A DNA stretch of 38,253 nt, from positions 28,529 through 66,781 of the forward strand of contig NVWO01000010.1 in the NCBI GenBank assembly GCA_002746255.1, written 5' to 3'. Source of the stretch: Rhodospirillaceae bacterium (GTDB lineage Bacteria; Pseudomonadota; Alphaproteobacteria; GCA-2746255). Shown piece by piece: positions 828-12,033 of the stretch (positions within the stretch are counted from its first letter, which is position 1; each line of letters begins with the position of its first letter). The translations under genes were made by a program, and so were the position numbers. The notes beneath the pieces are model-generated. The model was given only the letters and a program-made list of their open reading frames with translations. It searched no databases and was not told where the DNA came from.

Positions 828-1102
828 GGCTTCCTCACCGTCTGTGTAGCTGTGTATCTGTTTGTCTGTGTATCGAGTTTGGGGATTCGTTATTTTTATC
901 GTTGGCGTTATGCTGCCCCATTGAATGGACTAACATATTTTCAACAGGATAAAAAAGCCAGTCAGTATCGCGCATTTTTATTGCCTATCTTCGCACCTTC
1001 CCCCAAGCATGCTTTCTTAACCCATTGATTAAAATGAATAAACATGGCTGATTTTATTTTTGCACGGAATTTTTGCGATTTGCCTGGGGTGACCAAAGCA
1101 AA
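828..1102. promoter_or_regulatory. Divergent intergenic region (275 bp)
   Basis: This is the longest non-coding stretch in the window. It separates the minus-strand secreted-protein gene from the plus-strand DUF6969-like gene, so promoters for both should lie here. It is visibly more AT-rich than the flanking genes, particularly 930-1075, and has the octamer repeats at its left end. I could not pick a convincing -35/-10 pair or a sigma-54 site. I see no small ORF with an SD and no RNA-like fold that I would defend. Confidence 0.5.
841..872. repeat. Four imperfect 8-bp tandem repeats in the 5' leader of the leftmost gene
   Basis: Four consecutive octamers read TCTGTGTA, GCTGTGTA, TCTGTTTG and TCTGTGTA. 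The array ends about 14 bases before the ATG of the minus-strand secreted protein, abutting its SD, so it would fall in the 5' untranslated leader or core promoter. It could be a regulator-binding array or a slipped-strand repeat. The function is not known. Confidence 0.6.
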
Positions 1103-1801
1103 ATGACGGATTTGGCTGCGATTTCGCATCCCAAGCTTAAGGCGCAGTGGACAGCCGGCCGCGAGGTCCTGGAGTGCTACCGGCTTCTTGCCAAGACGGG
1201 GGACAACGTCGTTGGTGAGCTAATCCGCGGGCATAAAACCTTTTATCAGTGGGATCACTATCCCGAGGGAGACGCCTATGATGGGGAAACCCATTCCCAG
1301 TATTACTACCATGCACACCGGGAACATCGGGATGAGCATGGGCATTTTCACGTCTTCCTGCGGCCAAAGGGAATGCCCCCTGGCATACGACCGACGCCCT
1401 TGCCGGATTTCGAGCCCCCCGCAGATGACAACGTCGCGTTAAGCCATTTGATTGCTATTTCGATGGATGCCTTTGGCCATCCAAGCTGCCTGTTTACAGC
1501 AAACCGCTGGGTGACCGGCGAAACTTGGTATGCGGGGGAGGATGTGTGCCGGATGGTTGCGTGTTTTAAAATGGACCAGGCGCGTCCGTCCTTGCTGGTC
1601 AATCGTTGGATTACGGCGATGCTGAAGTTTTTTGAGCCTGAAATATGCGACCTGATTGCTCGCCGCGACCTGTCGGTAGAGGCGTGGAAGAAACAGCATC
1701 CAGATGGCAATGTTTTTGAGGATCGAGAGCTTGAGACGACTTCGGAAATAGAAATTTCCGTTGATGACAAGCTGCGGCAACTCGAAGCGATTTTGGATTG
1801 A
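1103..1801 (+). CDS. DUF6969-like protein of unknown function
   Basis: This 232-residue soluble protein has no signal peptide or membrane segment. It resembles, from memory, the DUF6969 family of proteobacterial proteins. Recognisable stretches are a Leu/Lys-rich start (LECYRLLAKTGDNVVGE), the aromatic/acidic segment QWDHYPEGD, the His-rich block SQYYYHAHREH followed by HGHFHVFLRPKG, and NRWVTGETWY plus LVNRWITAMLKFF further on. The dense His/Tyr/Asp content around residues 60-105 could bind metal, but no function is established. A TTG at 1073 would add 10 residues; I prefer the ATG at 1103, which has a modest GGGGTGA upstream. The gene is transcribed towards the cytochrome c gene and shares a terminator hairpin with it. 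Confidence 0.75.
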   Translation: MTDLAAISHPKLKAQWTAGREVLECYRLLAKTGDNVVGELIRGHKTFYQWDHYPEGDAYDGETHSQYYYHAHREHRDEHGHFHVFLRPKGMPPGIRPTPLPDFEPPADDNVALSHLIAISMDAFGHPSCLFTANRWVTGETWYAGEDVCRMVACFKMDQARPSLLVNRWITAMLKFFEPEICDLIARRDLSVEAWKKQHPDGNVFEDRELETTSEIEISVDDKLRQLEAILD

Positions 1802-1897: not shown

Positions 1898-2281
1898 CTA
1901 CTTCGTGGCTTCTTTCAAATAGGCGATCAGATCCTTGCGCTTGGCTTCTTTCTTCAGGCCGGGGAAGGCCATCTTGGTACCCTTGATGTATTTTTTCGGC
2001 TTGGTAAGAAAGGCATCAAGCGTTTCCTCATTCCAGACAATGCCGGCGTCCTTCATTGCGGCTGAATATTTAAACCCTTCCACGGTCCCAGAGGTGCGGC
2101 CAAAGATGCCAGCCAGAGACGGGCCCACTTTATTTTTACCGGCGACCAACGTGTGACAGGCTTTGCACTTTTTGAAACCCTTTTTGCCTTTTTTTACGTC
2201 GCCTGCCATTGCAACGCCGCTAACCAGCGTAAACGCAAAGGCAAATACGACGCCGAGGCCTAGAATCTTCGATGATCTCAT
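1898..2281 (-). CDS. Class I c-type cytochrome (c2/c550-like), periplasmic electron carrier
   Basis: The 127-residue precursor has a signal peptide ([10 protein letters not shown]... cleaved after AMA, about residue 26) and a mature domain of about 100 residues, typical of small class I cytochromes c. The haem site CKACH is at residues 39-43. The sixth ligand is probably Met104 in the KGTKMAFPG segment, which matches the mitochondrial/c2 pattern. The N-terminal and C-terminal parts are very Lys-rich, as expected for docking to acidic partners. A strong SD (GGAGAG) precedes the ATG. The gene follows pqqE by 81 bases on the same strand and is closed by a terminator, so it may be the last gene of the pqq transcript. 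A plausible job is to accept electrons from a quinoprotein dehydrogenase and pass them to an oxidase; the partner is inferred. Confidence 0.93.
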
Positions 2282-2362
2282 TTATTCTCTCCAGAGCGTT
2301 CCACGGGGCTGTGTGAATTCGCCAGCAGTATCCAAAAGATAGCGGCGACTTGCAACTGGTTC

Positions 2363-3451
2363 TTAATTCCCTTTTCGGCGGTAACGGAAGGGGGAAACCG
2401 GATGGCTGGCTTCGCTTGCCGTCATTTGACGGATCTGGTCGTGGTCTGGGGAAAGCTCGCAGACGGGGTCCATCCTTGCCGCATCGCCGGTCAGCAGCAG
2501 CGCCTGGCAACGGCAGCCGCCCCAGTCAATTTCACGCTGCTCGCAGGAAAGGCAGGGCTCCGGCATCCAGTCGGTGCCGCGGAAATGCTGGAAGGCGGTT
2601 GATTTCAGCCAGATGTCGGCCAGGCCGCGCTCCCGGACATTGTCGAATTGAAGGCCTGGGATCTGCTCGGCGGCGTGGCACGGCAGGGCCTTGCCCGACG
2701 GGCTGACGTTCAGAAATTGGTTGCCCCATCCGCCCATGCAGGCCTTCGGGCGCTTCGCATAGTAATCTGGCGGCACGTGATCGATGAGGAGAATGCCTTT
2801 CAGCCGCACCTCGGCCTCGGCGATGAGGGCACTTGCCTTTTCGATCTGGTCGCGGCTTGGCAGCAAGGCTTGCCGGTTTTCAAAGGCCCAGCCGTAATAT
2901 TGGGCATGGGCGATTTCAAGCCGCCCGGCGCCAAGTTCAACGGCCAGGTCGATCATCGCGTCGAGATGCTCCAGATTCTGACGGTGAAAGACGCAATTGA
3001 TCGTAAGGGCAAGCCCGGCCTGATGGACAAGTCTTGCGATGATCAGTTTTTTTGCGTGCGCGCCCTTCATGTTGGCAATTCGGTCGGCGGCCTCGGCGAC
3101 GCTGCCCTGAAGGCTTAGCTGGACATGTTCAAGGCCGGCATGTGCAAGGGCCTTGATCTTTGCCGCGTCGAGGGGAATGCCGGACGTGATCAAATTCGTA
3201 TAAAGCCCGGCAGCGTTTGCATGGCGGACAAGCTGGCAAAGGTCTTTGCGCGTGGCGGGCTCGCCCCCGGAAAAGTGGACCTGATAGGTGCCAAGTGCCG
3301 CCGCCTCGTCCAGAACCCGGCACCATTCTTCTGTCGAAAGTTCGTTCTCCGCGCCTTCAAGGGCCAATGGGTTCGAACAATACGGGCATTGCAGGGGGCA
3401 TCGGTGGGTAAGCTCTGCAAGGAGGGCCAGGGGCGGTGCCGGCGTGCTCAT
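2363..3451 (-). CDS. pqqE: PqqE, radical SAM/SPASM enzyme of PQQ synthesis
   Basis: PqqE forms the Glu-Tyr carbon-carbon crosslink in PqqA, the first committed step of PQQ synthesis, in the cytoplasm with PqqD as peptide chaperone. The 362-residue product carries the radical SAM cluster motif CPLQCPYC near the N-terminus (Cys18, Cys22, Cys25) and a HFSGGEP segment typical of the SAM site. Cys-rich C-terminal SPASM elements follow (CMGGWGNQF, LPCHAAEQ, CLSCEQREIDWGGCRC and a late Cys) for auxiliary Fe-S clusters. The length fits the family. The ATG at 3449-3451 overlaps the pqqD stop as ATGA, so the longer open frame upstream is not used. It is last of the four tightly overlapped pqqBCDE genes. 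Confidence 0.97.
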   Translation of the reverse strand: MSTPAPPLALLAELTHRCPLQCPYCSNPLALEGAENELSTEEWCRVLDEAAALGTYQVHFSGGEPATRKDLCQLVRHANAAGLYTNLITSGIPLDAAKIKALAHAGLEHVQLSLQGSVAEAADRIANMKGAHAKKLIIARLVHQAGLALTINCVFHRQNLEHLDAMIDLAVELGAGRLEIAHAQYYGWAFENRQALLPSRDQIEKASALIAEAEVRLKGILLIDHVPPDYYAKRPKACMGGWGNQFLNVSPSGKALPCHAAEQIPGLQFDNVRERGLADIWLKSTAFQHFRGTDWMPEPCLSCEQREIDWGGCRCQALLLTGDAARMDPVCELSPDHDQIRQMTASEASHPVSPFRYRRKGN

Positions 3452-3735
3452 AGGGTAAGGATTCTCTGATCCGTCAGGTCTTGCAGAAGTTCCAGAACAT
3501 CCGCTTCGATCGTTTCGTGGGGGGCTTGGTAACGTTCGGCAAGGGCGGTGATCATCGCGGCGATGGAGGTCTTTCCATCGCAAAGCTTCAGGACTTCGAC
3601 GGCGATCGCATCGGGTATGAGAAGCCGTTCCGGTGACAGCACAACCCATCGCGCGCGCGTTTCATCGAAGCGAAACCGCACATGGGGTGCCAGTCGCGGC
3701 AGGGCTTCGCTGTCGAGGATGCAGCGTGCCTTCAT
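3448..3735 (-). CDS. pqqD: PqqD, PqqA-binding chaperone
   Basis: PqqD is a small winged-helix RiPP recognition protein that binds the PqqA peptide and presents it to PqqE. The product is 95 residues, as usual for free-standing PqqD. Family features visible are the start region LPRLAPHVRFRFDETR, the segment WVVLSPERLLIPDAIAVEVL and the C-terminal DVLELLQDLTDQRIL helix. The start at 3733-3735 (MKARCIL) is fixed by the ATGA overlap with the pqqC stop. Its own stop overlaps the pqqE start in the same way, which keeps PqqD and PqqE synthesis coupled. Confidence 0.95.
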   Translation of the reverse strand: MKARCILDSEALPRLAPHVRFRFDETRARWVVLSPERLLIPDAIAVEVLKLCDGKTSIAAMITALAERYQAPHETIEADVLELLQDLTDQRILTL

Positions 3736-4484
3736 GGGGTGTCTTCCGGTTGAAAGGCACCGGGCGGAATGTGGCCAGGTTCGACATAGGCGTGCATCAG
3801 CGCGTCCAGTTGTGCCCACAACATATTGCATTTGAAATAGAGCGCCTGGAGGACGCGTTGTTGGGCTGCGACCGTTCTGGCTTCGCGCTTCATATAATCA
3901 AGAGCAAAATCGGCGTCCCGCGTCGCCTGATCAAGCCGCCCACGGAAATAGGAAAGCGTCGCTTCATCGATGAAATCGTAATGCTCCAGCATGCCAGAAA
4001 TCCGTTCACGATGAATTTTCGGCGCAAAAAGTTCCGTTAGCGACGACGCAATCCCTTCGAGAAGCGGACGTTCGCCAACAAAATGCACATAGGCCTCGAC
4101 GGCAAACCGCGTGGCCGGCAGCACACCTTTCATGGCGATGACATCGCTTCGGGGAAGGCCAAGGCCGTCCGTCAGTTTCAGCCAGCGCGCGATGCCTCCT
4201 TCGCGTTCCGGGGTTCCGTCATGATCTTCGATGCGTACGCGCCAGATTTGTCGCAGGGCCGGGTCCGTCATGCGCGCAAGCAGCGTGCTGTCCTTGATCG
4301 GGATATGCGCCTGATAGCAATAGCGGTTAAGCGCCCATGCCTGCACCTGCCCCTTTCGCAGCTTGCCGCCGTGGAGAAGGGCGTGGAAAGGGTGCCGGTC
4401 GTGATAGCGTTCGCGACCGATTGCCCGCAATTCGGATTCAAGCGCGTCCGGCGTTAACAGCGCATTGTCCGGCGCGTTTTTCAT
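3732..4484 (-). CDS. pqqC: PqqC, pyrroloquinoline-quinone synthase
   Basis: PqqC is a cofactor-free oxidase that closes the ring and carries out the last oxidations from AHQQ to PQQ. The 250-residue protein is the normal length and almost entirely helical in character, with the family stretches RYHDRHPFHALLHGGKL, WALNRYCYQAHIPIKDS, RIEDHDG and FVGERPLLEGIASSLTE. His and Arg residues in the first three contribute to the active site in known PqqC enzymes. The ATG at 4482-4484 overlaps the pqqB stop as ATGA. There is no sign of truncation or of fusion to PqqD, which some genomes have. Confidence 0.97.
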   Translation of the reverse strand: MKNAPDNALLTPDALESELRAIGRERYHDRHPFHALLHGGKLRKGQVQAWALNRYCYQAHIPIKDSTLLARMTDPALRQIWRVRIEDHDGTPEREGGIARWLKLTDGLGLPRSDVIAMKGVLPATRFAVEAYVHFVGERPLLEGIASSLTELFAPKIHRERISGMLEHYDFIDEATLSYFRGRLDQATRDADFALDYMKREARTVAAQQRVLQALYFKCNMLWAQLDALMHAYVEPGHIPPGAFQPEDTP

Positions 4485-5413
4485 AGTCGAATTTCCATTC
4501 CGTCATAGGCGACTTCCCAATCGGCATCGGTGACGCATTTTTGTTCCGGTGAATCATCCATCAAAACGGGGTTCGTGTTGTTCAGGTGAATAAAGACTTT
4601 CCGTTTGACGCCCAGCGTCCGGAAGGCTGCCAACGTACCCGCTTCGCCCGAGATGCTCATATGCCCCATGCGGTTTCCCGTTTTCACCCCGACGCCGGAG
4701 GTGATCATTTCATCGTCCTGCCAAAGGGTGCCATCGAACAAGACCAGCGGGGCGCCGCGAAGACGTTGCGCCAGTTCGTCGGGGAAGGCAGCACAGCCAG
4801 GTATGTAATAGAAATGGGAATTGCCGGTCGCCGATGCCACCCGAAGGGCAATCGTATCTTCTGGCACGCTGCCGAAATTGGGGCCTGCCGTCGGGTCTTC
4901 CAGATAAAGCGCTACTTTCCCAGGAACGGTGAAGGCTTCGACTGTAATGCCCGAGGCGGCACCGTCGGCCGTTTCAAGGCGCGTTGGCGTGTTGAGCGTG
5001 AATTTTCGCCGTTGCACAAATTTCTCGTTCAGGGCGTGAAAAATACGGTTCGCATTCAGTGTGTCTTGGACCCGTCCCGTCGCGTAAAGGCTAAGCGGCT
5101 GGCTTTCCCGCAAATTTAAAAGACCGGCAATGTGGTCGATGTCGGCATTGGTCACCACGACGCCACCAATCGGGCTGCTGCGGTGTTTCTCGGGGGGATG
5201 AAGGGCGGGGGTTTCGTTTAATTGCTGGCGCAGATCGGGCGATGCGTTCAGTAGGAACCATGGCCCGTCATCTGCCCGTACGGCAAGGGAAGACTGGGTT
5301 CTTGGGCGGACCATTGGGTCTTTTGCGCGCGCGCGCTGGCAGACATGGCAACCGCAATTCCACTGGGGAAGGCCGCCGCCGGCCGCCGATCCCAGGACAA
5401 GAATCTGCAACAA
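4481..5413 (-). CDS. pqqB: PqqB, metallo-beta-lactamase-fold protein of PQQ synthesis
   Basis: PqqB is the metallo-hydrolase-fold oxidoreductase thought to hydroxylate the tyrosine ring of the processed PqqA dipeptide. The product is 310 residues. It opens with ILVLGSAAGGGLPQWNC, followed by CGCHVC (Cys20, 22, 25), the structural zinc site of the family. TNADIDHIAGLLNLRE is the divergent metal-binding HxHxDH-like motif. Conserved GTLWQDDEMI and MGHMSISG come later. There is no ATG at this position. The start is TTG at 5411-5413 (the next codon is also TTG) with GGGAG upstream, so initiation may be weak relative to pqqA. A 59-base gap separates it from pqqA. Confidence 0.95.
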   Translation of the reverse strand: MLQILVLGSAAGGGLPQWNCGCHVCQRARAKDPMVRPRTQSSLAVRADDGPWFLLNASPDLRQQLNETPALHPPEKHRSSPIGGVVVTNADIDHIAGLLNLRESQPLSLYATGRVQDTLNANRIFHALNEKFVQRRKFTLNTPTRLETADGAASGITVEAFTVPGKVALYLEDPTAGPNFGSVPEDTIALRVASATGNSHFYYIPGCAAFPDELAQRLRGAPLVLFDGTLWQDDEMITSGVGVKTGNRMGHMSISGEAGTLAAFRTLGVKRKVFIHLNNTNPVLMDDSPEQKCVTDADWEVAYDGMEIRL

Positions 5414-5472
5414 CCGGTTTCTCCCGTTGTGGGATGATTTTTATCGTGGGTGGTGACTAAAAAAAGTGGAGA

Positions 5473-5562
5473 TTAGCCTTCGGAGCAGGCGTAGGCATTG
5501 ATCTCAAGGCCGATGCGGATTACTTGAATCCGAGGCTTTTTCCACTGCTTCCGCATATCCAT
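5473..5562 (-). CDS. pqqA: PqqA, precursor peptide of PQQ
   Basis: PqqA is the ribosomal peptide whose Glu and Tyr side chains become PQQ. The 29-residue frame reads MDMRKQWKKPRIQ, then VIRIGLEINAYACSEG. The required E-x3-Y pattern is Glu20-Ile-Asn-Ala-Tyr24, and WKKP resembles the Klebsiella-type leader. Either the ATG at 5562 or the one at 5556 may be used; AAGG in the leader lies 4 and 10 bases away respectively, and the second spacing is the more usual (27 residues). The core is followed by a Cys (residue 26) and a short acidic tail. It heads the pqq operon, 59 bases before pqqB, and is divergent from an ABC importer. Confidence 0.93.
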   Translation of the reverse strand: MDMRKQWKKPRIQVIRIGLEINAYACSEG

Positions 5563-5602
5563 TGAACCTTGTTTTCTTTTCGAAACTGGTCTTTCCATGC
5601 AA

Positions 5603-5632
5603 AGTATGGCCTCTCCGTCTGCTATCAGGCAA
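5603..5632 (-). promoter_or_regulatory. Candidate sigma-70-type promoter for pqqA
   Basis: Upstream of pqqA on the minus strand, TTGCCT (5627-5632) and CATACT (5603-5608) are separated by 18 bases, each matching 4 of 6 consensus positions. This would give a leader of roughly 35 bases before the pqqA start. It lies in the 127-base divergent region shared with the ABC binding-protein gene. This is pattern matching only, and no transcript data support it. Confidence 0.3.
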
Positions 5633-5689
5633 GGGTTTAATCGAAGCCGGTGGTTTGAAGGCGGCGAAAAACGAAGAAGGGATGCCGGG

Positions 5690-6724
5690 GTGTTGCGACG
5701 ACGAAGCATTCGATGGCAGGTGGGCATGACCCTGGCGGCTGCCCTGTTCTTGCTGCCTGCCGTGACGCATGCTCCGCCCGCCATGGCTCAGCCGAGTCTG
5801 GCTCAGCCGAGTCTGGCTCAGTCGATCCGGATTGGGGCTTTGAAATTCGGCTCCGTTGCCTGGGAATTTGATGTCATTGCCCATCACAGGCTGGATCGCA
5901 AACACGGGTTTTCTCTGGACATTGTTCCGCTTGCCAGTACCCAGGCCCTGAAGGTTGCCCTTCAGGCCGGTGGGGTGGATGTCATTCTTGCCGATTGGCT
6001 TTGGGTTTCGCGGATTCGCCAATCCGGCTCGGACGTAACGTTCGCGCCCTATGGCGCCTGGGCCGGTGCGCTCATGGTTCCGGCGGCTTCCAAGACGCGG
6101 ACGCTGGGGGACCTTGCGGGCTTGCGCATTGGCGTTGCCGGTGGGCCGATCAACAAGAACTGGCTGCTTCTCCAAGCCCTGGCGGCAAAGGAAGAGGGCC
6201 TGCGCCTTGCCGATGAAATGGAAATTGTCTTTGCGGCCCCGCCGCTTTTGCGGATGGAAATGCAGACCGGGCGTCTGGACGCGGTGCTGACCTATTGGCA
6301 GGACGCAGCCATGCTTCAGACGATCGGGTTTCGTCGCATGATCGACACGGCAGAGGTGGCAAGGCGCCTGGGCGTTTCCCGGCGTGTTCCATTTTTGGGC
6401 TATGTTTTTTCGTCCGCCTGGGCAGAGTCGCGCCGCGATGCGCTGCGGGGCTTTCTTGCGGCATCGCGTGAGGCCAAGGCCATCCTTCGTCACTCGGATG
6501 CCGAATGGGAACGTCTTGCCCCCCTTACGCGCACGGACGGCGCAACCCAGCTTCACACGGTACGCGACGCCTACCGGCGGGGGCTTCTCGAACATTGGGG
6601 CGAGGAGGAACGTCACGCCGCCGAAGCCCTTTTCGGCGTTCTTTCGGGGGTGGCTGGGACGCCATTGACCGGTGGGCAAACCCGCCTGGCACCGGGAACC
6701 TTCTGGGCGGAGGACCGTTTTTAA
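5690..6724 (+). CDS. ABC importer periplasmic binding protein, NitT/TauT (SsuA/ThiY-like) family
   Basis: The product should be a secreted ligand-binding protein. From the GTG at 5690 (AAGAAGG upstream) it has 344 residues with a basic n-region (RRRSIRW), a hydrophobic core (MTLAAALFLLPAV) and cleavage near PPAMA. The mature protein begins IRIGALKFGSVAWEFDVIAHH and then carries GGVDVILADWLWVSR and LAGLRIGVAGGPINKNWLLL, the pattern of type II binding proteins for nitrate, taurine, sulfonates and thiamine precursors. The first mature residues contain a duplicated PSLAQ. An ATG at 5597 would give a 31-residue extension with no SD. It is followed directly by its permease and ATPase. The ligand is unknown; position opposite pqqA suggests a link to the PQQ system. 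Confidence 0.85.
   Translation: MLRRRSIRWQVGMTLAAALFLLPAVTHAPPAMAQPSLAQPSLAQSIRIGALKFGSVAWEFDVIAHHRLDRKHGFSLDIVPLASTQALKVALQAGGVDVILADWLWVSRIRQSGSDVTFAPYGAWAGALMVPAASKTRTLGDLAGLRIGVAGGPINKNWLLLQALAAKEEGLRLADEMEIVFAAPPLLRMEMQTGRLDAVLTYWQDAAMLQTIGFRRMIDTAEVARRLGVSRRVPFLGYVFSSAWAESRRDALRGFLAASREAKAILRHSDAEWERLAPLTRTDGATQLHTVRDAYRRGLLEHWGEEERHAAEALFGVLSGVAGTPLTGGQTRLAPGTFWAEDRF
5786..5820 (+). repeat. 15-bp tandem duplication in the binding-protein gene
   Basis: The unit GCTCAGCCGAGTCTG occurs twice in a row (5786-5800, 5801-5815), followed by the first five bases of a third copy. It encodes AQPSL repeated just after the signal-peptide cleavage site, so copy-number change would only lengthen a flexible linker. 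Confidence 0.85.
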
Positions 6725-6727
6725 CCC

Positions 6728-7477
6728 ATGGGTTTCCTAAAAGAGATGTGGCCGAGAATTGTTTCCTTCCTCCTCCTTCTTCTCCTCTGGAAATACGGGG
6801 CGGTGGTCGTTGACAGCCGCCTTCTGCCACCGCCGGAAATTGTATTTGCCGTGCTGTATGACGGGTTTCAAAGTGGCGAAATCCCCCACCACATCGGCAT
6901 CACCCTTGGGCGCGTGGCGGCAAGTTTTGTTCTGGCGATGACGATCGGGTCGGCCATCGGCATTGCCATGGGAAGATCCCGATTGCTTGACCGGCTGTTC
7001 GACTCCTGGCTGGTTCTGTTTCTGAACATTCCCGCACTGGTCGTTATCCTGTTGGCGTATGTCTGGTTTGGGCTGGTTGAATCCGCTGCGATCTTGGCTG
7101 TCGCGGTGAACAAGATTCCAAACGTGGCCGTGACGCTTCGGGAAGGATCGCGCGCGCTTGACCGGGACTGTCTTGAAATGGCGCGCAGTTTCCGCCTGGG
7201 CTCCCTTCGGACCTTTCGTCATGTCGTGCTGCCGCAACTTTCCCCTTATTTTCTGGCATCCGCCCGTTCGGGGTTGGCGCTGATCTGGAAAATTGTTCTG
7301 GTCGTTGAATTGCTTGGACGCAGCAATGGGGTCGGCTTTCAACTGCATCTTTATTTTCAACTGTTCGATGTGGCCTCGATCCTTGCTTACACGCTTGCCT
7401 TTGTTGCTGTCGTGCTGGTAATCGAAGCTGTGATTTTACGCCCCCTTGACCGTCGGGCCATGCGGTGGCGGCGATGA
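6728..7477 (+). CDS. ABC importer permease, NitT/TauT (SsuC/TauC-like) family
   Basis: This 249-residue inner-membrane protein has about six hydrophobic segments. The first is near residues 8-28, and the last ends in VVLVIEAVILRPLDRR just before the C-terminus. The cytoplasmic EAA loop that contacts the ATPase reads as EMARSFRLGSLRTFRHVVLP followed by QLSPY, as in BPD_transp_1 permeases of nitrate/taurine systems. The ATG at 6728 lies three bases after the binding-protein stop. The stop overlaps the ATPase start as ATGA. These three genes are therefore one transcription unit. The substrate cannot be read from the permease. Confidence 0.92.
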   Translation: MGFLKEMWPRIVSFLLLLLLWKYGAVVVDSRLLPPPEIVFAVLYDGFQSGEIPHHIGITLGRVAASFVLAMTIGSAIGIAMGRSRLLDRLFDSWLVLFLNIPALVVILLAYVWFGLVESAAILAVAVNKIPNVAVTLREGSRALDRDCLEMARSFRLGSLRTFRHVVLPQLSPYFLASARSGLALIWKIVLVVELLGRSNGVGFQLHLYFQLFDVASILAYTLAFVAVVLVIEAVILRPLDRRAMRWRR

Positions 7478-8205
7478 GCGGAATGCAGGTTGACCTTCGC
7501 AAAAAGTATTTCCCGGACATGTCTGGAGAGGGTCGGCGGCAGGTCCTGGGTAAAATTTGCTTTTCCGCCAAGAAGGGGGAATTTCTTGCGATTGTCGGTC
7601 CGTCTGGTTGCGGCAAGACGACGCTTTTGAACCTGGTCGCCGGGCTGGATGCGGATTATGAGGGCAACATTGCGCGTGAGGGGATGGCCGAAAAGGCGAT
7701 GCCGAATATCGGCTACGTCTTCCAAACGCCGCGCCTTCTGCCTTGGCGGACGGTGTTCGAGAATGTCTGCCTTGTCCTGAAGGAGCCGGCCCCAAAAGAT
7801 GGCTTTGTGGAAAAACTGCTTGCCGAGGCCGGGTTGACGGAATTTCGGAACGCGTATCCGGAGAAGCTTTCCCTTGGCCAGCAGCGCCGTGCCGCGATCG
7901 TGCGCGCCCTTGCCATCGCGCCGGATTTGCTTCTAATGGACGAACCGTTTGTTTCCCTCGACAGGCCAACGGCGGAACGGCTTCGCCGGCTTTTGCTGGA
8001 TATATGGGGCGCGCGTCCGACAACGGTTCTGTTCGTCACCCATGATTTGGATGAAGCGATCGTGCTTGCCGATCGCGTGCTTGTTCTTTCAGACAGTCCG
8101 GCAACGCTTCTTGCCGATGTGCCGATTGCGGTGCCGCGAGACGAGCGGACGGCCGAGGTGCTGGCGGAATTTCGCCAGCGACTCCAGTTGCTGGAAAAAC
8201 CTTAA
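7474..8205 (+). CDS. ABC importer ATPase, NitT/TauT (SsuB/TauB-like) family
   Basis: This 243-residue nucleotide-binding subunit energises the importer. Walker A is GPSGCGKTT (residues 42-50), the Q-loop Gln is residue 84, and Walker B with the catalytic Glu is LLLMDEP (Glu157). The switch His is residue 190 in FVTHDLDEA. The ABC signature is LSLGQ rather than LSGGQ (residues 132-136), a variation that still fits an active ATPase. The ATG at 7474 overlaps the permease stop. A GTG nine bases earlier is possible but unnecessary. The stop codon overlaps the stop of the oppositely oriented PedC-like gene by four-base TTAA, leaving no room for a terminator. Confidence 0.93.
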   Translation: MSGMQVDLRKKYFPDMSGEGRRQVLGKICFSAKKGEFLAIVGPSGCGKTTLLNLVAGLDADYEGNIAREGMAEKAMPNIGYVFQTPRLLPWRTVFENVCLVLKEPAPKDGFVEKLLAEAGLTEFRNAYPEKLSLGQQRRAAIVRALAIAPDLLLMDEPFVSLDRPTAERLRRLLLDIWGARPTTVLFVTHDLDEAIVLADRVLVLSDSPATLLADVPIAVPRDERTAEVLAEFRQRLQLLEKP

Positions 8206-9005
8206 ACGCCGCCTTTTCGTTGCATCATACCCCGTGCCGGGTCGTAGCCAAGGACGGCCATGCCCATGAACAATGCAAAGCAGCCCAGGGTGATGGCAAT
8301 CGCCCAGGGGTTAAAATCGCCATAAAGGGCGAAACGGATCATCTCGACAACATGGGTAAAGGGGTTAAAGCGGCAGATTTCATAAAGCAGCACGCTTGAT
8401 TCCCGCATTTTCCAAAGTGGGTAAAGCGCCGAGGACAGAAAGAACATTGGGAAAATAACGAAATTCATGATGCCGGCGAAATTTTCAAGCTGGTGAATGA
8501 CCGAAGAAAACAACAACCCTAGCGCGCCGAGCATGAGGCCGGAAAGAATGAGCGCGGGCAGGATTGTGAAATAGCCAAGAAGCGGCGTCTCGATACCGAA
8601 CAGAAAGACGATTCCAAGAAAGGCATAGACTTGCAGGATGGAAACAAAGGTGCCCGCTGCCAGCTTGCAGATTAGCAGGTACCAGCGGGGAAGGGGGCTT
8701 ACAAGCAGGGTGCGCATGCTTCCCATCTCCCGGTCATAGACCATGGAGAGCGAACTTTGCATGCCGTTGAAAAGCTGGATCATGCCGATGAGGCCGGGAA
8801 GGATATAGACCTCATAGGGAATGTAGGTTTCATAAGGCGCCATGATCGCAATCCCAAGCGCCGCGCGAAAGCCGGCTGCAAAAACCAGCAACCAGATCAG
8901 CGGGCGCACAAGGGCGGCCAGGAACCGTTCGCGTTGTTGTAGAAACCGCAGCGCCTCGCGGGTGAGAATGCCCAGAAACCCACGTAGATAATGCATGGCG
9001 TTCAT
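8202..9005 (-). CDS. pedC: ABC-2-type permease of the PQQ-dehydrogenase-associated (PedC/LutF-like) transporter
   Basis: This 267-residue membrane protein has about six hydrophobic segments and the ABC-2 layout. The loop LVSPLPRWYLLICKLAAGTF is the conserved region before the later helices. It matches, from memory, the family annotated as ABC permease of the PQQ-dependent alcohol dehydrogenase system (PedC of Pseudomonas putida, LutF of Methylobacterium). Homologous systems are required for growth with lanthanide-dependent methanol or alcohol dehydrogenases, which suggests metal or metal-chelate transport. The start ATG at 9003-9005 overlaps the ATPase stop as ATGA. It is the last of four co-directional genes. 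Confidence 0.88.
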   Translation of the reverse strand: MNAMHYLRGFLGILTREALRFLQQRERFLAALVRPLIWLLVFAAGFRAALGIAIMAPYETYIPYEVYILPGLIGMIQLFNGMQSSLSMVYDREMGSMRTLLVSPLPRWYLLICKLAAGTFVSILQVYAFLGIVFLFGIETPLLGYFTILPALILSGLMLGALGLLFSSVIHQLENFAGIMNFVIFPMFFLSSALYPLWKMRESSVLLYEICRFNPFTHVVEMIRFALYGDFNPWAIAITLGCFALFMGMAVLGYDPARGMMQRKGGV

Positions 9006-9751
9006 GATGGGGCGTCCTTCGCCGTCAGTTTTGTGAACGCGTCGCCAAGGGTTGTCGCTTCTGCCGTCTGCAGGATGTCGGCGGTTGTGCCTTGCGCGCG
9101 AACGCGGCCCGAATCCAGCAGGACAATGTGGTCGTCGGGGGCAACTTCATCGATAAGATGCGTTGCCCAAAGCACAGCAATGCCTTCCGTTTTGCACAGC
9201 CCGTGGATGTGATTGACAATGGCCAGGCGTGTTGGCACGTCCAGGCCAATTGTCGGTTCGTCCAGCAGCAGAAGGCGTGGCCGGTGAAGAAGGGCGCGCG
9301 CGATCTCAACCCGTCGCCGATGTCCGCCATTTAGGGCGCGGACTTTCTCCTGTTTCCGTTCATCCATGTCAAAACGCCGCAGTTCGGTTTCAATCCGTTG
9401 AACGGCATCCTTTTTCCCCATGCCGCGAAGGGCGGCGTGGTAGCGAAGGTTCTGAAGCACGCTTAAATCAAGGTCGAGTGTCGGCTGCTGAAAAACGACG
9501 CCCATTTCGGCCATTGCGGGCAGGGGTGTTTTTTGAAGGTCAAAGCCAGCAACGGAAATGCGCCCCTGATTCGAGGCATAGAGACGGGTGATGAGGGAAA
9601 AAAGGGTCGTCTTTCCGGCGCCGTTCGGCCCTAGAAGCACGGTGAATCTCCCCGGCGCGATCGTGAAACAAATATTGCTTAAGGAGGTCTTCGCACCATA
9701 GCGAAAACTTACCCCGTCTATTTGAAGCGCGGGCGTGGCGGCGTCGTGCAT
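9002..9751 (-). CDS. pedB: ABC ATPase of the PQQ-dehydrogenase-associated (PedB/LutE-like) transporter
   Basis: The product has 249 residues from the ATG at 9749-9751. An open frame extends 19 codons further but into the preceding gene. Walker A is GPNGAGKTT (41-49), Walker B LLLLDEP leads to Glu165, and the switch His is in LWATHLIDE. The signature is LNGGH followed by RRRVEIARALLH, which I recall as the typical sequence of this family rather than a defect. The DEPTIGLD segment and Q-loop FQQP are normal. Its start is 2 bases before the propeller gene's stop in the transcription direction's downstream side, so the two are effectively contiguous. It pairs with the ABC-2 permease next to it. 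Confidence 0.9.
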   Translation of the reverse strand: MHDAATPALQIDGVSFRYGAKTSLSNICFTIAPGRFTVLLGPNGAGKTTLFSLITRLYASNQGRISVAGFDLQKTPLPAMAEMGVVFQQPTLDLDLSVLQNLRYHAALRGMGKKDAVQRIETELRRFDMDERKQEKVRALNGGHRRRVEIARALLHRPRLLLLDEPTIGLDVPTRLAIVNHIHGLCKTEGIAVLWATHLIDEVAPDDHIVLLDSGRVRAQGTTADILQTAEATTLGDAFTKLTAKDAPS

Positions 9752-9752
9752 G

Positions 9753-10727
9753 CTATGGCCCAACAGCAACCCCCCAGGGAAAGCGGCCCGTGGCGACGGA
9801 TTTTTCAACTTTCAGGGCGGCCACGTCGATGATGGAGACGTCGTTGCTGACGCCGTTCGTCGTGTAAAGCCGTTTCCCATCGGGTGAAAAAGCGAGGTTC
9901 CAGACCCGGCTGCCGACAAGAAGATATTTTTCAACCGCATAGGTCTTGCGGTTGATGACGGCGACGTGGTTCGCCGGGCCGAGCGCGACAAACGCCCATG
10001 GGCCGTCTTTCATATGGGCGATGCCGACCGGCTGAATCTTCGCGCTTTCGATACCGGAGATGGCAAAGGCAATGCGATGCGTGATTTCATGCGATGTGCT
10101 GTCGATGATGTTCACATTGCCGCCGATCTCGGCGGAAACCCACGCCTCTTTGGCATCTGGGGTGAAGGCGACGTATCTGGGACGGCTGTCGACAAGCACG
10201 TTTTTGACAAGGGTGTTCGTGGCGGTGTCGATCCAGTGGGTCATGTTTGTGGTTTCAGACGTGACAACGGCCCATTTTCCGTCCGGGCTTGTTCCCACCC
10301 CTTCCGGTTCGACGCCGACCGGAATTTCGGTAAGGATTTTACGCGTATTCACGTCGATCACGGTGACAAGGTTGTCGTCTTCATTCGAGACATAAAGAAC
10401 CCGGCCATTCGGATGAAGGGCGAAGGTTTCCGGATCGTCTCCGGAAGGAAGCGTATGGGTCACCTTTGCCGTTTCCAGGTCAAGCACCTGGATTATATCG
10501 TCGTCGCTGGCACAGATATAAAGCGACTTTTTATCAAGGCTTAGGACAATTCCACGGGGACGGCGGCCCACCGGAATGGTTTTTTTTAATGCGCCGGTTT
10601 CGCCATCAAGAAGGACGATTGTGTTGTCCTTTTCATTGGAAACGTAAACGGTTGTTGCCAAGGCGCCGTTTGGAATGGCAAGGATGAAAGCAAGGATCGC
10701 ATGTCTTAAAATTTTCCGCCTGTCCAT
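9753..10727 (-). CDS. pedA2: PQQ-system YVTN beta-propeller protein (PedA2/LutB-like), periplasmic
   Basis: The 324-residue precursor has a signal peptide (MDRRKILRHAILAFILAIPN, cleaved after ALA). About seven repeated blades follow, each with YVSNEKDNTI- or YVSNEDDNLV-like strands, VxDxxT turns and xVGRRPxG or PVGVEPEG loops. This is the family called PQQ-dependent catabolism-associated beta-propeller. It is a soluble periplasmic scaffold without catalytic residues that I can identify. In the Ped/Lut systems it accompanies the binding protein, ATPase and permease and may take part in capturing the cargo, possibly lanthanide. It starts 5 bases after the preceding gene's stop with AAGGAAA upstream. 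Confidence 0.92.
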   Translation of the reverse strand: MDRRKILRHAILAFILAIPNGALATTVYVSNEKDNTIVLLDGETGALKKTIPVGRRPRGIVLSLDKKSLYICASDDDIIQVLDLETAKVTHTLPSGDDPETFALHPNGRVLYVSNEDDNLVTVIDVNTRKILTEIPVGVEPEGVGTSPDGKWAVVTSETTNMTHWIDTATNTLVKNVLVDSRPRYVAFTPDAKEAWVSAEIGGNVNIIDSTSHEITHRIAFAISGIESAKIQPVGIAHMKDGPWAFVALGPANHVAVINRKTYAVEKYLLVGSRVWNLAFSPDGKRLYTTNGVSNDVSIIDVAALKVEKSVATGRFPWGVAVGP

Positions 10728-10731
10728 GCCT

Positions 10732-12033
10732 CTATTTTCCTTCCCCTAGGTATGAAGCCGTACAACCGCTTTCCGGTTCATCATAGCCTAGCGTATCGAG
10801 GGTGGTTTTCGGATGCAGAAAGCCCGCCTGGGGTGCCGATGCGACGAGGGCTTTTGGGGCCGCAAGCAGGATCGGCTGGCGCAATTGCCGGTTCCAGTGA
10901 CGGAAGGTCAGCTTTTGCCCTTTGAACCCCTGGAGGGAAAAATCAGGCCCTAAAAGATAGCTTCGAAGGGGCGCAAGATCCGTTGTACCCGTCCGCGTCG
11001 CCGCTTCGCCGATGGCGCGGACGGCAAGCCATGCCGCATAATCTTCTGCACGCATCGCGCGTCCGGCAGCCTTTTGAAAGCGCCGCTGAAGCTGGGAGGC
11101 GCCCCATTGTTCATGGGTCCAGTGCCAGGCCGTCGGGCGCAATCCTTGCGTGCCGGCAACCGGCCGCGCTTCCCAGGTGCGGTAGGCAAAATATTCGCCG
11201 AAATCCCCGCGTTCATCGGCAAGAATCAAAACATCGTAATTCACGTTTTGCGTGAACAGCGGTACTTCGGCCATTGCCGTCCGTCGGGCATCATGGGTGT
11301 AGGTCCAATCCTTCTCTTCCACGATGCGGCCGCCAAAGCGTTTGGCGGCTCGGCGCACAGCGCTGGCAAAATCCCGGTCCGCTTCCCTGGGGCCAACCAC
11401 AAGAAACCATCGTGACCAGCGTTTGCGAACAAGATATTGCGCAAGCGCATCGGCCAACATGGCGCGGCTTGGCAGGATGTGCAGAAGGTTGGGCCGACAT
11501 GCCTGATTTCGCAACGAATCATCCGGGGCGCCTGCGTTGTAAAAAAGAACATCCCTGGCCTCGGGTAAATCGGCCAGCGCAAGAAGGCTGTCGGTTGGAA
11601 GCCGGGTGACAATGTGGCGAAGGCCGGTGGCGATAAGCTTGCGCAACGCGGCAGTCGCATCGCCATCCGCTGGCAGGATAACAGCTTCAAGATGAAAGGC
11701 CTGGTTCAGGAATTTTCCTGTCGTGCCGTTGTCGCCGATTGCCAATTGCGCGCCCTGAAGCCCAAGATCGCCGGGTTCCGCCTCAAGATTCGAACGCGCC
11801 GGCCCGGCGGTGTTCTTCATGGCGAGAAAGGCGACGCGCAACGTGGGCGTCGCCACTTCCCCGGAAAATGCCCGGTTTTCGACGATTCCCAGGGGCAGCA
11901 GTGCAAACACCATGACGGCCAGCCAGCGTTGGCGATGCAAAAATATCCCAGGCAACCACGCCGTAATTTTTTTACGTTTTATCAGGACTTCCTCCGGATG
12001 ATCGGATTGTCGAAAAGATCCTTTTTCCGTCAA
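10732..12033 (-). CDS. pedA1: PQQ-dehydrogenase-associated ABC binding protein (PedA1/LutA-like)
   Basis: This secreted binding protein of the branched-chain-amino-acid receptor fold is specific to PQQ alcohol dehydrogenase loci. Visible features are a hydrophobic signal region (WLAVMVFALLPLGIVENRAF, about residues 36-55 of the long frame), a start of the mature fold at LRVAFLAMKNT, and the Gly-rich QGAQLAIGDNG. The closing TLDTLGYDEPESGC is the C-terminal signature I associate with this family. The start is unclear: the longest frame begins with TTG at 12033 without SD, while a perfect GGAGGAAG sits at 11988-11995 ahead of CTG (11985) and ATA codons; the first ATG is at 11913. It heads the four-gene transporter operon and is divergent from the glutamate dehydrogenase gene. 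Confidence 0.87.
   Translation of the reverse strand: MTEKGSFRQSDHPEEVLIKRKKITAWLPGIFLHRQRWLAVMVFALLPLGIVENRAFSGEVATPTLRVAFLAMKNTAGPARSNLEAEPGDLGLQGAQLAIGDNGTTGKFLNQAFHLEAVILPADGDATAALRKLIATGLRHIVTRLPTDSLLALADLPEARDVLFYNAGAPDDSLRNQACRPNLLHILPSRAMLADALAQYLVRKRWSRWFLVVGPREADRDFASAVRRAAKRFGGRIVEEKDWTYTHDARRTAMAEVPLFTQNVNYDVLILADERGDFGEYFAYRTWEARPVAGTQGLRPTAWHWTHEQWGASQLQRRFQKAAGRAMRAEDYAAWLAVRAIGEAATRTGTTDLAPLRSYLLGPDFSLQGFKGQKLTFRHWNRQLRQPILLAAPKALVASAPQAGFLHPKTTLDTLGYDEPESGCTASYLGEGK

Follow-up and report, generated by a model that had tools for sequence, protein, structure and literature searches.

We suggest that the 38,253-nucleotide stretch of DNA analysed here (the window) carries a gene island that probably makes and recaptures the cofactor pyrroloquinoline quinone (PQQ) and imports lanthanide ions (Ln3+) for a single, unlinked lanthanide-type alcohol dehydrogenase. 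The window lies on contig C10 of an alphaproteobacterial genome of 2.10 Mb (33 contigs, completeness 99.8%). Within positions 1898-12033 it holds the complete PQQ synthesis genes pqqABCDE, a small cytochrome c gene and the four PedA1-A2-B-C/Lut genes of an ATP-binding cassette (ABC) system. The initial annotation of this DNA had listed these three elements, and NCBIfam, Pfam and the reading of open reading frames bear it out. It overlooked, however, three genes of the same interval that form an operon for a binding protein, a permease and an ATPase on the forward strand (5597-8205); this operon belongs to the PqqT type. With this second ABC system the reading shifts: what was lanthanide uptake tied to PQQ synthesis becomes a supply island in which either half of the cofactor has a putative way inward. 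The genes of the island are as follows, with curated NCBIfam cut-offs used for the gene calls and Pfam for general domains.

1898-2281, reverse strand: small periplasmic cytochrome c of the c-550 type (PF00034, 41.8 bits)
2363-3649, reverse strand: pqqE (TIGR02109, 549.8 bits, cut-off 381)
3448-3831, reverse strand: pqqD (TIGR03859, 81.5 bits, cut-off 46)
3732-4484, reverse strand: pqqC (TIGR02111, 369.9 bits, cut-off 240)
4481-5413, reverse strand: pqqB (TIGR02108, 401 bits, cut-off 245)
5473-5562, reverse strand: pqqA, 29-residue precursor peptide with the E-x3-Y pair (open reading frame)
5597-6724, forward strand: PqqT-type, putatively PQQ-binding periplasmic protein (9b1u/9b1v, E=1.5e-59, 38% identity)
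6728-7477, forward strand: permease of the PqqT-type ABC system (PF00528; under all sulfonate, taurine and nitrate cut-offs)
7465-8205, forward strand: ATPase of the PqqT-type ABC system (PF00005; under all specific NCBIfam cut-offs)
8202-9005, reverse strand: pedC/lutF, permease (TIGR03861, 420.6 bits, cut-off 241)
9002-9808, reverse strand: pedB/lutE, ATPase (TIGR03864, 351.5 bits, cut-off 302)
9753-10727, reverse strand: pedA2/lutB, YVTN beta-propeller protein (TIGR03866, 486.7 bits, cut-off 287)
10732-12033, reverse strand: pedA1/lutA, periplasmic binding protein (TIGR03863, 505.4 bits, cut-off 414)

The genes pqqA and pedC flank the PqqT-type operon, which is encoded on the other strand, and the end of its ATPase gene (8205) overlaps the convergent pedC. 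A signal peptide suggests that the binding protein starts near 5726. Pfam alone places this protein in the NMT1/SsuA superfamily. Its homology to PqqT covers the full length and lies well above that to SsuA, TauA and NrtA: the window protein by itself matches 9b1u with E=1.5e-59 (205 bits) and the sulfonate-binding SsuA 2x26 with 2e-4 (23.5 bits), and a profile built from it and four relatives reaches E of about 1e-79 with 9b1u/9b1v and 9ooz, while the remaining solved structures stay at 1e-6 or worse. Against the curated SsuA, TauA, NtrCD or SsuC models the binding protein scores 20.7 bits (cut-off 163.5), the ATPase 158.6 bits (cut-off 395) and the permease 100.8 bits (cut-off 347). With these scores below the cut-offs and PqqT as the nearest structure, identity as a sulfonate or nitrate importer was rejected.

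The alignment column of chain residue Lys115 is occupied by lysine in 58 of 58 aligned family members, the window protein included. Adding an assumed signal peptide of 27 residues equates it with K142 of PqqT, which we take to contact PQQ at the metal position. If the conserved lysine does occupy that position, the PqqT route would carry metal-free PQQ. Compared with PqqT of Methylobacterium extorquens AM1 (9b1u, 9b1v), the window protein is alike over the whole mature protein and retains the PQQ-contacting lysine, which is preceded by Asn instead of the Asp of PqqT; its operon includes the permease and ATPase and is divergent from pqqA and convergent with pedC. Entry 9B1V is PqqT with PQQ bound, for which a dissociation constant of 50 nM is given (PMC12828617), and in AM1 the protein is described as preventing PQQ loss and aiding PQQ capture (PMC12124388). 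We suggest that PQQ is the substrate of the PqqT-type system of the window as well and that the system presumably works inward.

The other transporter is assigned to the Ped/Lut family on two findings: PedA1, PedA2, PedB and PedC occur together, each above its curated cut-off, and the genome holds one lanthanide-type PQQ dehydrogenase with the DYD motif. All four components are common to the window, to PedA1A2BC of Pseudomonas putida KT2440 and to LutA, LutB, LutE and LutF of M. extorquens AM1. The systems are also alike in their tie to PQQ alcohol dehydrogenases, and the absence of LutH is shared with P. putida. Unlike them, the window system stands together with pqqA-E and a PqqT-type transporter and has no adjoining dehydrogenase or regulator genes; LutC, LutD and LutG were not recognised in the window. 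Its substrate is most plausibly Ln3+. The claim of the initial annotation that relatives of this system are needed for lanthanide-dependent growth is backed by mutants. In P. putida the loss of PedA1A2BC raises the La3+ requirement of PedH-dependent growth about 100-fold and leaves PedE-dependent growth unaffected (PMC6839425), and lutA, lutE and lutF mutants are reported to retain La in the periplasm (PMC7391723).

The initial annotation noted that the dehydrogenase is missing from the window and placed it either just left of position 1 or elsewhere. It is indeed missing, as PF13360 matches occur only on contigs C1 and C2, that on C1 being a 468-residue frame taken as BamB-type. The left-hand option failed, because the adjoining 12.5 kb of C10 (locus L008) carry other genes, namely those for fatty-acid oxidation, a GMC oxidoreductase, DUF1329, DUF3179 and cytochrome P460-type proteins. 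The other option holds: a single gene for a PQQ alcohol dehydrogenase is present in the genome, at C2:38226-40022, and a cytochrome c gene follows it directly downstream.

The metal-ligand positions of XoxF and PedH are established, and an extra aspartate distinguishes lanthanide-type enzymes. The nearest PDB relative of the C2 enzyme is PedH of P. putida (6zcw), and the alignment shows all of its metal ligands, E221, N289, D332 and D334, identical to the E, N, D, D of PedH; the position of D334 is Thr in both calcium-type structures aligned. The C2 enzyme differs from PedH by a one-residue insertion after the Asn ligand. TIGR03075 finds one gene in each of the four genomes of the genus, all four with the DYD motif. 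The initial annotation had named as evidence against itself a genome with no PQQ dehydrogenase or with calcium-type MxaF only; the search gave neither, and with the extra aspartate in the single enzyme this refutation fails. Unlike P. putida, the genome has its PQQ alcohol dehydrogenase unlinked to the Ped genes and without a calcium-type partner such as PedE, no second, calcium-type enzyme having been found in the genome. Alcohol oxidation by this route is thus predicted to need a lanthanide, and the C2 enzyme probably requires one in vivo. Its substrate is presumably a multi-carbon alcohol. The proposed tie between rare-earth uptake and PQQ supply gains support, in part, from the single lanthanide-type dehydrogenase; as first put it was incomplete, with the PqqT-type transporter left out.

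The PQQ synthesis operon is complete, with PqqA-E in order. Its pqqA is a 29-codon frame, MDMRKQWKKPRIQVIRIGLEINAYACSEG, with the Glu-x3-Tyr pair. Within the listed frames homology begins at residue 70 of pqqE, whose true start is nearer 3450, and at residue 45 of pqqD. In the sister genome G001 the gene order is conserved at 58-85% protein identity (cytochrome c, pqq genes and the two ABC systems), which suggests that the arrangement is not chance; there pqqA is 83% identical and the cytochrome c gene also lies downstream of pqqE. A scan of genome contigs gave only two loci, one apparently G003, and an Rfam scan of the window gave zero matches.

The two ABC systems are joined well beyond this genus. 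In 15 genomes from 7 families the PqqT-permease-ATPase operon runs on into pedB, and in two of these families the run extends through PedA2, PedA1 and PedC. TIGR03864 is the best model for the PedB of four sampled genomes and of Sinorhizobium meliloti, two of the four sampled lying under its cut-off. On pSymB of S. meliloti the order is PedA1-PedA2-small protein-PqqT-permease-ATPase-PedB-PedC, with reading frames overlapping from PqqT to PedC. This xoxF region and the window have the same two ABC systems. In S. meliloti a single operon interleaves them, and xoxFGJ and formaldehyde genes lie close by, whereas the window has three separate operons and lacks XoxJ, Fae and methanol genes. PqqT-type genes also stand beside xoxF-type, ped and/or pqq genes in Rhizobium, Phyllobacterium, Azospirillum, Roseomonas and Tateyamaria loci and in the gammaproteobacterium Ca. 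Thiodictyon. In Phaeobacter the PqqT-type permease lies about 15 kb from the binding protein and ATPase (L032 14920-16533; NC_023138.1 190208-190990) and still adjoins pqqABCDE.

Two further arrangements were seen. A Sagittula plasmid (L040 765-3041) carries a distant PqqT-type ABC operon of 32% identity beside type VI secretion genes and not PQQ genes. Genome G019 has, besides a full pqqABCDE, an extra radical SAM gene that is PqqE-like but diverged (L024 360-1397, reverse strand, 47% identity) and a second pqqA, both near its PqqT operon.

Co-occurrence was counted over 386 genomes of Alphaproteobacteria, each 85% complete or more, with only strong matches to PedA1 taken. Of these, 55 have PedA1 and 49 the PqqT-type protein, the latter spread over 25 families; 47 genomes have both, 8 PedA1 only, 2 PqqT only and 329 neither (Fisher p of about 2e-49, which is not to be taken literally because the genomes are related). 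PqqT of AM1 scores 272 bits on the census profile, which falls among the scores of the 49 hits (216-567); what was counted is therefore the PqqT family. In G032, one of the exceptions with PqqT and no PedA1, a TIGR03864-positive pedB is still joined to the PqqT operon. For 17 of the 49 genomes no Ped, alcohol dehydrogenase or pqq gene could be recognised at 10 kb or less from PqqT; physical linkage is thus common, not general. The association persists among genomes with pqqC (both 36, PedA1 only 7, PqqT only 2, neither 23; p=5.5e-10), and 11 of 12 PedA1-positive genomes lacking a detected pqqC have PqqT. PqqT therefore follows the lanthanide importer more closely than the capacity to make PQQ, and these counts make a tie to synthesis rather than to Ped the weaker explanation.

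Several near-complete genomes (e.g. G164, G233 and G356) have Ped, PqqT and PQQ alcohol dehydrogenases with pqqC undetected, and may thus depend on PQQ taken up from outside. The sister genome G002 was considered as a natural knock-out of the island and set aside: its neighbouring glutamate dehydrogenase is missing too, which makes an assembly gap at least as likely as loss.

The same linkage could be taken to mean that the two ABC systems are one machine, importing a lanthanide-PQQ complex or using PQQ as a lanthanide carrier. The interleaved operon of S. meliloti, the PqqT-permease-ATPase-PedB operons of 7 families and the persistence of PqqT with PedA1 where pqqC was not found all fit such a machine. 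We consider it unlikely, however, since the invariant lysine equated with K142 favours metal-free PQQ and each system has a full binding protein, permease and ATPase of its own.

Several points weigh against a lanthanide and PQQ supply island. The dehydrogenase is on another contig than the island, PedC falls in an exporter-like permease class (drrB-type), and identity to the AM1 PqqT is 38%. The extra aspartate by itself would be no proof of lanthanide dependence. No outer-membrane lanthanide receptor was found in the genome: the LutH-type TonB receptor that the initial annotation proposed to look for did not turn up, and the only TonB receptor is BtuB-like and adjoins BtuF/BtuC-like B12 genes. 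LutH is reported as absent from P. putida KT2440, which uses lanthanides (PMC6839425), and no obvious LutH is described in S. meliloti 2011, which uses them for growth on methanol (PMC12628762), so its absence does not refute lanthanide use. The missing LutH and the exporter-like PedC would suit a dehydrogenase that uses Ca2+ in vivo beside a Ped-like system for another metal or substrate. This seems to us quite improbable given the four lanthanide ligands with the extra aspartate, the DYD motif in four of four genomes of the genus and what mutants of two organisms show of Ped/Lut function (PMC6839425, PMC7391723). Least credible is a bystander role for the SsuA-like system, with the import of a sulfonate, of nitrate or of a carbon compound formed when alcohols are oxidised. 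The Pfam superfamily, the weak Sagittula relative and the reading of lanthanide-responsive ssuABCD in strain RH AL1 as alkanesulfonate genes (PMC10848612) might point to such a role. However, the system scores far under every sulfonate, taurine and nitrate cut-off, is nearer to PqqT than to any other solved structure by over 50 orders of magnitude, accompanies PedA1 in 47 of 49 genomes and shares operons with pedB.

We return to the supply island and propose the following sequence of events. PqqA-E would make PQQ in the cytoplasm. The cofactor is used in the periplasm and can leak out from there (PMC12124388). The PqqT-type protein would catch free periplasmic PQQ, and its permease and ATPase partner would return it to the cell. 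PedA1A2BC would import Ln3+ across the inner membrane, as has been concluded from P. putida and M. extorquens mutants (PMC6839425, PMC7391723). Both routes would keep the PedH-like C2 dehydrogenase, with its own cytochrome c, supplied.

Methanol is disfavoured as a growth substrate, since the genome gave zero matches to XoxJ (TIGR03871) and Fae (PF08714) and its best match to glutathione-formaldehyde dehydrogenase (TIGR02818) has 221 bits at a cut-off of 544. Methylotrophy of the host, set aside on these grounds, is thus unlikely as judged from gene content.

The left edge of the window holds a periplasmic protein family, in the window at 3-827 on the reverse strand (full gene L008:12283-13356) and as a second copy at L008:6023-7069. 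A cytochrome P460 domain (PF16694) is recognised in the second copy, together with a CIACH heme motif and NPCAA(K) units in repeat. No Pfam family matches the edge copy, within which the assembly has five N. Related copies lie at the same place in G001. So does the DUF6969 gene (PF22308, 279 bits) that flanks the cytochrome c gene at window 1073-1801 on the forward strand. Just left of the window, L008 8221-11817 carries genes for a GMC oxidoreductase and a small partner, a DUF1329 gene and an adjoining DUF3179 gene; this may be a further membrane-linked system for the oxidation of alcohols or sterols.

Last but not least, the families themselves are known already, and the arrangement with its conserved coupling is the part worth following. 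The open-access literature on Ped, Lut, PqqT/PqqU and rhizobial XoxF, as excerpted (PMC6839425, PMC7391723, PMC12997753, PMC12628762, PMC11845868, PMC12124388, PMC12828617), yielded no description of a PqqT-type ABC operon joined to Ped/Lut; an earlier description elsewhere is possible. Where PQQ genes adjoin, proteins annotated generically as "ABC transporter substrate-binding protein" or as SsuA-like may be better named PqqT-type. Lanthanide-using enzymes are periplasmic, yet lanthanides are pumped into the cytoplasm, and the linkage of the two ABC systems bears on this question. Quite tentatively, the PqqT-type and Ped/Lut importers might be one functional unit across Alphaproteobacteria, with PQQ and Ln3+ entering the cytoplasm together for assembly of lanthanide-PQQ, storage or sensing, or with PQQ helping to carry the metal. 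The conserved link between the lanthanide pump and the PQQ-recapture pump makes a direct test possible. For this small-genome lineage, with a single lanthanide-type dehydrogenase, no calcium-type spare and no LutH, alcohol oxidation is predicted to be lanthanide-dependent.

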